This document shows positions 2,481 to 58,481 of a stretch of 64,000 nucleotides of DNA, in pieces. The position numbers and the translations under genes are program-made. Under the pieces are notes generated by a model, which had not been told where the DNA came from, made no database searches, and saw only the letters and a program-made list of their open reading frames with translations. The DNA is from Haloterrigena gelatinilytica (GTDB taxonomy: Archaea > Halobacteriota > Halobacteria > Halobacteriales > Natrialbaceae). The stretch spans positions 1,612,001 through 1,676,000 of the forward strand of contig NZ_JABUQZ010000001.1 of NCBI RefSeq assembly GCF_013342145.1, in the 5' to 3' direction. Numbering within the stretch: the first letter of the stretch is position 1; each line of letters begins with the position of its first letter.

Positions 2481-3077
2481 ATGGAGTTCGACGTCGTACA
2501 GGGCGACATCGCCGCACAGTCAGCCGACGCGCTCGTCAACGCCGCCGGGACGAGCCTCGAGATGGGTTCCGGCGTCGCCGGCGCGCTCCGACGCGGCGCG
2601 GGCGAGGAGATCAACGAAGAGGCCACGGCGAAGGGCCCCGTCGATCTCGGCGAGGTGGCCGTGACGGACGCGTACGATCTGGACGCCGACTACGTCATCC
2701 ACGCTGCGGCGATGCCTCACTACGGGGTTCACGAGACTCCGTCGGAGTCTCGTGAGCTAACCAGAACCGAAGGTTCTGGTGCTGACGGCCGGGCGACCGA
2801 AGAAAGCATCCGCGACGCAACCCGGAACGCGCTCGAGAAGGCCGACGACCTGCGCTGCCGATCGATCGCGCTCCCGGCGCTCGGCTGTGGCGTCGCGGGC
2901 TTCGACCTCGCCGAGGGCGCCGCGCTCATCGCCGAGGAGATCCGCGACTACGAGCCCGAGACCGTGGCGGAGGTTCGGTTCATCGCCTACGCCGACGAGG
3001 AGTACGAGACGATCCGCGCCGCGACCGCGACGGGCGACTCGCCGGCGCCGACCGACGGGAGCGAGTCCGATCGGTGA
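2481..3077 (+). CDS. Macro-domain protein (ADP-ribose/ADP-ribosyl binding or hydrolysis) with inserted palindromic segment
   Basis: A 198-residue macro domain. Motifs are VVQGDIAAQSADALVNAA (ADP-ribose adenine/phosphate loops, residues 5-22), a glycine-rich SGVAGALRRGAG loop (30-41) and the ALPALGCGVAGF phosphate loop near 137. Family members bind or remove ADP-ribose and related O-acetyl products. Residues about 83-104 (VHETPSES through GADG) do not fit the family. They are encoded by two adjacent DNA palindromes, apparently an in-frame insertion between the conserved HAAAMPHYG and the following ATEESIRDAT helix. Its effect on activity is unknown. Confidence 0.88.
   Translation: MEFDVVQGDIAAQSADALVNAAGTSLEMGSGVAGALRRGAGEEINEEATAKGPVDLGEVAVTDAYDLDADYVIHAAAMPHYGVHETPSESRELTRTEGSGADGRATEESIRDATRNALEKADDLRCRSIALPALGCGVAGFDLAEGAALIAEEIRDYEPETVAEVRFIAYADEEYETIRAATATGDSPAPTDGSESDR
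2729..2780. repeat. Double palindrome inserted in the macro-domain gene
   Basis: Two adjacent inverted repeats. The first has 13-bp arms at 2729-2741 and 2743-2755 around a single base. The second is ACCAGAACC/GGTTCTGGT at 2760-2768 and 2772-2780 around GAA. Both lie within codons that interrupt a conserved protein region, suggesting a small mobile or recombinogenic palindromic element. Confidence 0.75.
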
Positions 3078-11771: not shown

Positions 11772-12236
11772 ATGACACTCGAGGTCGAACCGCCCGAGCC
11801 GCCGGAACTGAACTTCGTCGACCCGAACGAGTACGAGGACGCGACGATCAGCGCCGACGGGGACGTCGACTATCGGCGCGAGGAACTCCAGGAGTTCCTC
11901 GAGACGGGCGCCTGGGAGGAAGCGTTCGAGGAGTGGCGCGAGGACACCGATCTCGAGGAGCGGGAGTACGAGATCGCCCGCGAGATGGATCTCTTCGCCG
12001 GCTTCGACTTCTTCTGGGACGACTTCGCCGACAGAGTCGGCTATCACGCGCCCGGCATCCCCGAGGACTGGCAGGCGCGGGAGTACCACCCCGATCTCGA
12101 CACGTGGGGGACGGTCTCCTCGATCAACGCCGAACTGACCGAGTTCGGTCAGATCGTCTCGGTGACTCTCAAGGAGGAGTACGTCGACTGGGAGGCCGAG
12201 TACGAACCGCCGGAGGATCTGCCGGACTTCGACTGA
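11772..12236 (+). CDS. Acidic haloarchaeal protein, paralogue 2
   Basis: A 154-residue paralogue of the 9947-10396 product with the same block order: REELQEFLETGAWEEAFEEW, a helical segment, FFWDDFADRVGYHAPGIPED, then a C-terminal helix. It begins with a proline-rich acidic stretch (MTLEVEPPEPPELNF). The start at 11772 is preferred to an in-frame ATG at 11733, which adds an atypical basic stretch. It follows the M20 peptidase by 66 nt. Function is unknown; the flanking arrangement suggests an old duplication around, or insertion of, the peptidase gene. Confidence 0.82.
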   Translation: MTLEVEPPEPPELNFVDPNEYEDATISADGDVDYRREELQEFLETGAWEEAFEEWREDTDLEEREYEIAREMDLFAGFDFFWDDFADRVGYHAPGIPEDWQAREYHPDLDTWGTVSSINAELTEFGQIVSVTLKEEYVDWEAEYEPPEDLPDFD

Positions 12237-57761: not shown

Positions 57762-58481
57762 TCAGTCGCGTTCGCCGAACGTCCGCGGCGCCCCCTCCGT
57801 CGGCGTCGCCCAGTCGACGGCGTTGCGGAGCACGCGTCGAACGTCGTCGTCCTCGTAGATCGGATACTCTTCGTGGCCCGGCCGGAAGTAGAAGATCCGG
57901 CCGCTGCCCCGCCGGTAACAACAGCCGCTGCGGAACACCTCCCCGCCCTCGAACCAGCTGGTGAACACCAGCCGGTCGGGCTCGGGCACGTCGAACGGCT
58001 CGCCGTACATCTCCGTTCTGGGGAGTTCGATCGATTCGTCGAGCCCGTCGGCGATCGGGTGGCCGGGGTCGACGACCCAGAGCCGTTCGGTCCCGCCGTC
58101 CTCGCGGTACTGCAGGCTACAGGTCGTGCCCATGAGCCGCTTGAAGACCTTCGAGTAGTGGCCCGAGTGGAGGACGATCAGGCCCATCCCCTCGAGGACC
58201 CGCTCCTGGACGCGGTCGACGACCGCCCCTGAGACCTCGTCGTGGGCCTCGTGGCCCCACCACAGCAACACGTCGGTCTCCTCGAGGACGTCCGCCGGAA
58301 GGCCGTGTTCGGGGTCGTCCAGCGTCGCGGTGCGGATACTGTGATCGGGCGCCTCGTCTCGTCCGTCGCCGTCGGTGAGCGCGTCGGCGATCGTCGCGTG
58401 GATCCCGTCCGGATAGACGGCCGCGATCTCGTCGTCCTCGCGCTCGTGCCGGTACTCGTTCCAGATCGTAACGTCGGCCAT
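57762..58481 (-). CDS. ThuA-like protein (trehalose utilisation/glutamine-amidotransferase-like fold)
   Basis: A 239-residue ThuA-domain protein: [67 protein letters not shown] and [25 protein letters not shown]. Class I amidotransferase-like fold without the catalytic Cys. It is frequently near sugar oxidoreductases, as here, where it is divergent from a Gfo/Idh/MocA gene. It probably acts in disaccharide or keto-sugar metabolism. Confidence 0.9.

Follow-up and report, generated by a model that had tools for sequence, protein, structure and literature searches.

Why does a macro-domain gene of Haloterrigena gelatinilytica contain two adjacent DNA palindromes within its coding sequence, and how was its reading frame kept? 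The gene lies in the window, the whole 64,000-nucleotide stretch that was analysed, and its product matches Pfam PF01661 (Macro) with an E value of 7.9e-29. The gene is 594 nt long, compared to 537 nt in its orthologues, and query residues 83-101 are missing in macro orthologues of 91-92% identity. The features of the locus are as follows.

2481..3077, + strand: host gene, an open reading frame for a macro-domain protein of 198 aa (179 aa minus the insert)
2724..2726, + strand: codon GGG (Gly82), left edge of the insertion point and part of a GRC^G-like target
2727..2783, + strand: inserted element, 57 nt / 19 aa, in-frame translation VHETPSESRELTRTEGSGA
2729..2755, no strand assigned: hairpin 1, arms 2729-2741/2743-2755, 13 bp, 1-nt loop, 100% complementary
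2760..2780, no strand assigned: hairpin 2, arms 2760-2768/2772-2780, 9 bp, 3-nt loop, 100% complementary
2784..2786, + strand: native Asp codon GAC, right edge of the insertion point, found in empty-site orthologues

An earlier note had described palindromes with 13-bp and 9-bp arms in a macro-domain gene, and both are present at these positions as perfect repeats. Its reading of a two-palindrome insert also stands; the size given there, 52 bases or about 21 residues, does not, and the real unit is 57 nt encoding 19 residues. Hairpin 1 is the longest tight hairpin within the 64-kb window, and arms of 13 bp or more were absent from 20 Markov-1 simulations. The double-hairpin pattern, with up to three mismatches allowed, is expected 0.00 times per window, and the RNA fold z-score is -4.8. 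At the left edge, the position of the Gly82 codon reads GGN in empty-site orthologues and GRC in most other copies of the element, and the empty site of the macro gene reads GGN^GAC. The GACG at the right edge of the insert is the reverse complement of a CGTC tag, and no clear target duplication was found at this site. The insert falls, in frame, at a macro-domain loop. In the AlphaFold model, which is modest (mean pLDDT 65), the insert region scores below 50 with little regular structure and is placed, at this low confidence, between the strand at 71-75 and the helix at 107-123. The insert probably extends the loop that joins the YVIHAA strand to the next helix and is likely to be nearly neutral in its effect on the enzyme.

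Two covariance models were used: R1, built from macro inserts, TnpB tails and repeat copies, and R2, built mostly from in-gene copies. R1 finds matches in 119 of the 125 genomes of the family. R2 matches 368 of the 391 genomes of Halobacteria, covering 85 of 86 genera; with only 14 candidates scored per genome, the R2 counts are lower bounds. Among the 23 genomes with R2 matches in the phylum-wide sample, 18 belong to the same order, and the other five have weak matches (best 7e-9). The best matches outside the order, in G447 (7e-9) and G429 (8e-8), both fall in family f24, and these genomes are possible distant carriers. A deeper search of six genomes recovered 8 to 43 matches each at E 1e-6, and the window's own genome holds 7-9 further matches to the same double hairpin. 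Most copies are intergenic or lie within IS200/IS605 transposons. Searching the genome and its relatives, as had been proposed from the sequence, thus revealed the same double hairpin at other sites, both in and between genes, with precise empty sites. No curated Rfam family matched up to E 1, and a phage search for the element gave no match; a pattern scan of virus contigs gave 13 short matches. Within the window, R2 matches the insert at 2727-2786 (67.9 bits, E 7.5e-22), with a weak second match at 58025-58073 (14.2 bits, E 0.012). A tight hairpin at 11879-11901 (arms of 11 bp, loop of 1 nt) does not match R2.

The R2 alignment defines an inverted pair of stems of 9 and 8 bp. The element has loops of 1 to about 7 nt, a linker of 6-7 nt and a net length of 51-60 nt. 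The right end is GACG, and the left end is CGTT more often than CGTC (CGT[TC]), so that there is no strict CGTC tag. The core of hairpin 2, CAGAA...TTCTG, is invariant in the aligned copies, and the stem homologous to hairpin 1 differs in other copies by paired changes. Element-like hairpin pairs are also seen at the stop codon of an isocitrate dehydrogenase-like gene (L350, G000:C1:2900360) and at that of dnaK (L360, G169), where they perhaps act as 3' end structures.

Copies of the element were found inside the following other genes.

Acyl-CoA dehydrogenase: in-frame copy in G007 and G108
TrpRS: in-frame copy in G031
Aldehyde dehydrogenase: in-frame copy in G136
TnpB: in-frame copies in two types
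PurK: in-frame copies in G108 and in G169, the latter from another family
ThpR: in-frame copy in G108
LeuD and a TIGR00725 protein: in-frame copies in the window's own genome
FAD-binding oxidoreductase: in-frame copy on a plasmid of Haloterrigena sp. KLK7, in a gene annotated by PGAP as an ordinary CDS

Precise empty sites were read for three genes, namely macro, acyl-CoA dehydrogenase and TrpRS. The acyl-CoA dehydrogenase site is GGC GAC^GAC GAG in those sisters of the same genus that could be read, apart from one with GGC AAC^AAC GAG, and the TrpRS site is GGC GAC^GAC GAC, with minor variation, in 13 of 13 relatives read. PDB alignments are interrupted at these same insertion points. These empty sites, together with the same element at other loci, bear out the proposal of the earlier note that a tiny palindromic element was captured as protein-coding sequence with the frame kept. 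Net length is 54, 57 or 60 nt in the intact in-gene copies and is divisible by 3 in 11 of 11; copies elsewhere distribute 38:31:35 over the three classes of length modulo 3. Although most elements offer 3-5 open frames, all 12 in-gene copies examined are read in frame +0 on one strand, for which P is 5e-7 if each open frame had the same chance of use. The intact in-gene copies are without stops.

Some hosts of the element may be broken, among them nadC and trpB. In the nadC gene at L343 (G000:C1:2920722-2920784), the element coincides with a gap of about 50 profile positions of the enzyme, which is a possible deletion-coupled insertion or pseudogene. The trpB gene at L201 (G027:C1:1748105 onward) contains two elements, one in frame and one reversed with an in-frame stop; the remaining reading frame is intact, and the gene may be a pseudogene or something stranger. 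Other frame-breaking copies occur at L192, L278 and L282 and in the SDR gene of L120/L122, and the hosts include a luciferase-like gene and an ABC transporter. In both L120 (G131) and L122/L442 (Natronorubrum sulfidifaciens), the SDR gene is split by the element within the catalytic YxxxK motif, and the SDR flanks in the two genera have dN/dS values of about 0.1 or less. When SDR orthologues were scanned, the gene of N. sulfidifaciens proved to be disrupted a second time, in an unrelated way, and it therefore looks like a pseudogene; the other listed orthologues are of normal length.

The insert might be regarded as a normal protein loop, functional and specific to its lineage, with DNA that is palindromic by chance, and its in-frame position at a macro-domain loop would agree with this. 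However, the same DNA structure is found at unrelated loci, including homologous copies between genes. In the R2 alignment, 98.6% of cells pair, and 40 cells show double changes compared to 10.6 ± 2.7 in shuffled alignments, with 0 one-sided changes. The encoded residues vary across the in-gene copies (VHET, VRKT, VRES) while the base pairing stays; the stems thus covary even within genes, at an amino-acid cost, implying that the nucleic-acid structure is what is conserved. Alignment with haloarchaeal macro proteins confirmed that the inserted residues are absent from most orthologues. Given the covarying stems, and an insert identity of 97% between genomes whose flanks are 68-88% identical, the earlier concern that homologues might encode an ordinary loop with unrelated DNA does not hold. 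The scatter of the carriers is also against an ordinary loop, which we regard as extremely improbable. The macro gene was found in 114 of the 125 family genomes, and at least five of the 114 carry the insert, namely G000 (the window's genome), G004, G074, G113 and G126. Because the site is exactly the same in all five, a single ancient insertion, inherited and then precisely lost in most lineages, has also to be considered. On the macro gene tree, the carriers require five label changes, of which well-supported branches force three or more; G000 carries the insert and its sisters G001 and G002 do not, as G004 does and G023 does not. In addition, the macro inserts fall into two sequence subtypes, and among G000, G004 and G126 the insert is 96.7% identical, whereas the left flanks are 82-87% and the right flanks 68-80% identical. 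The scattered carriers and an insert more alike than its flanks imply repeated gain, or gene conversion over short tracts, and agree poorly with simple descent; a single ancient insertion is unlikely.

The out-of-frame or stop-containing copies in the SDR gene of two genera, the second trpB insert of G027, the luciferase-like gene and the ABC transporter would be understandable if the element behaved like an intron or a bypass element, being excised from the mRNA or passed over by ribosomes, in which case frame would be irrelevant. This idea, raised by the SDR and trpB copies, was demoted once the second disruption of the N. sulfidifaciens SDR gene was seen, and the divisibility by 3 and freedom from stops of 11 of 11 intact in-gene copies are unexpected under it, making it very improbable. 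The first lead was that the insert, rather than being a dispersed small element, had been captured from an IS200/IS605 tnpB gene as a piece of its 3' end, part of the guide-RNA scaffold. The first relatives found outside macro genes were TnpB C-terminal tails, which are 79-81% identical, use the same frame (VHETxxLVQPARTEGSGDDD*) and adjoin the transposon right end. This lead was demoted after the copies in enzyme genes and between genes were found. TnpB families hold the element at differing places, either C-terminal or ahead of a RuvC motif, and the macro linker AGCYAA is nearer to the intergenic and enzyme-gene copies than to the CAGCCCG of the TnpB tails. Moreover, for most of the copies fetched there is no TnpB match in the surrounding 1.2 kb. 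Capture of a tnpB end is therefore unlikely. As to the element being the terminal palindrome of an IS605-type transposon (an IS200/IS605 end or a PATE), the copies point both ways, with many in or near TnpB elements and most outside them.

Based on the results presented above, the macro insert most likely belongs to a dispersed family of haloarchaeal REP-pair (REPIN/RPE-like) elements, which are probably moved in trans by a Y1 transposase. It is established that the elements are dispersed, that paired changes maintain their structure, that their empty sites are precise, that they enter at GRC^G and that in intact genes they are read in frame on the same strand. A single-strand Y1 transposase (IS200/IS605 or RAYT-like) would recognise the hairpins and target GTC/CGTC; we infer this type of movement from the hairpins, the CGTC/GACG-like ends, the lack of a clear target duplication in the macro gene, and the proximity of TnpB/TnpA, which lie within 1.2 kb of 33 of 78 family-set loci. 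In Salinigranum, the element lies inside TnpB adjoining TnpA. Several copies per IS200/IS605 TnpB locus occur at L230, L210, L188 and L222, in both orientations, with one in frame within tnpB. As its distribution suggests, the element may still be mobile today, and it may also form cruciforms in the cell, as the earlier note supposed.

The insertion target GRC^G usually lies at the edge of an Asp or Gly codon. In the coding DNA of the window, 71% of GRC^G sites fall at a codon edge, half per strand. Since GRC^G is mostly found at codon edges (GAC, GGC), the choice of target explains the phase. GRC^G is equally common in antisense phase 0, and the strand bias consequently needs selection on top. 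Read in the sense direction, the element yields a hydrophilic, acidic peptide (mean charge -2.6, GRAVY -1.36), and most of its other frames give basic peptides or stops. An acidic, hydrophilic peptide may be tolerated by a halophile protein as an extra surface loop, and copies in other frames would be purged by selection. It is possible, and put forward here tentatively, that through its GRC^G target and acidic sense peptide this class-wide element is pre-adapted to coding DNA and routinely creates new surface loops.

Palindromic elements that keep the frame are known from textbooks as a curiosity of Rickettsia. The Rickettsia palindromic elements (RPEs; Ogata/Claverie) are single long stem-loops of 105-150 bp, reviewed in PMC2229807 and PMC10969869. 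Like RPEs, the haloarchaeal element is dispersed palindromic DNA in and between genes, is inserted in frame in unrelated conserved enzymes and has a conserved encoded peptide. Compared by description, it differs from the bacterial RPEs in its two hairpins, net length, class-wide archaeal range, GRC^G target and acidic peptide. It is RPE-like and not an RPE, because it measures 51-60 nt net, has two hairpins and is essentially confined to Halobacteria. Within the archaea, Suyama 2005 is reportedly the paper behind the coding repeats of Methanocaldococcus jannaschii. These palindromic repeats with coding potential, fused into protein genes, are likewise archaeal repeat DNA fused to genes, in one methanogen, as represented in the citing review (PMC2229807). 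The closest architecture is that of the CGTC-tagged REPs and REP dimers (Di Nocera 2013, PMC3733652) and REPINs (Bertels and Rainey 2011, PMC3116915), known from bacterial surveys; no dedicated transposase is known for CGTC REPs (PMC3733652). The haloarchaeal element resembles these in its 8-9 bp stems, inverted pairs and some intragenic copies, and its ends may correspond to their outward-facing CGTC tags; unlike in CGTC REPs, the left tag here is mostly CGTT, the loops are of 1 to about 7 nt and the linker is a short 6-7 nt. The SMRs/PATEs of Haloquadratum walsbyi (PMC3119063), about 52-390 bp and described chiefly in transposons, are also small transposase-free haloarchaeal repeats without target duplication, tied to the near-terminal palindromes of IS605-type transposons. 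Judged by that description, they appear to be set apart by the in-frame capture in enzyme genes seen here. In searches of open-access literature, no account of this family or of in-frame haloarchaeal palindromes was found. The kind of element is thus already known, and the haloarchaeal family and its in-frame behaviour appear to be undescribed.

A structurally conserved family present in nearly all haloarchaeal genera repeatedly enters core enzymes, and close relatives keep the precise empty sites. The GAC/GGC codon-edge target and the acidic sense peptide provide a simple, testable reason for the keeping of frame. As haloarchaea are genetically tractable, the family offers a model for protein loops born from mobile DNA and for the movement of CGTC-type REPs.
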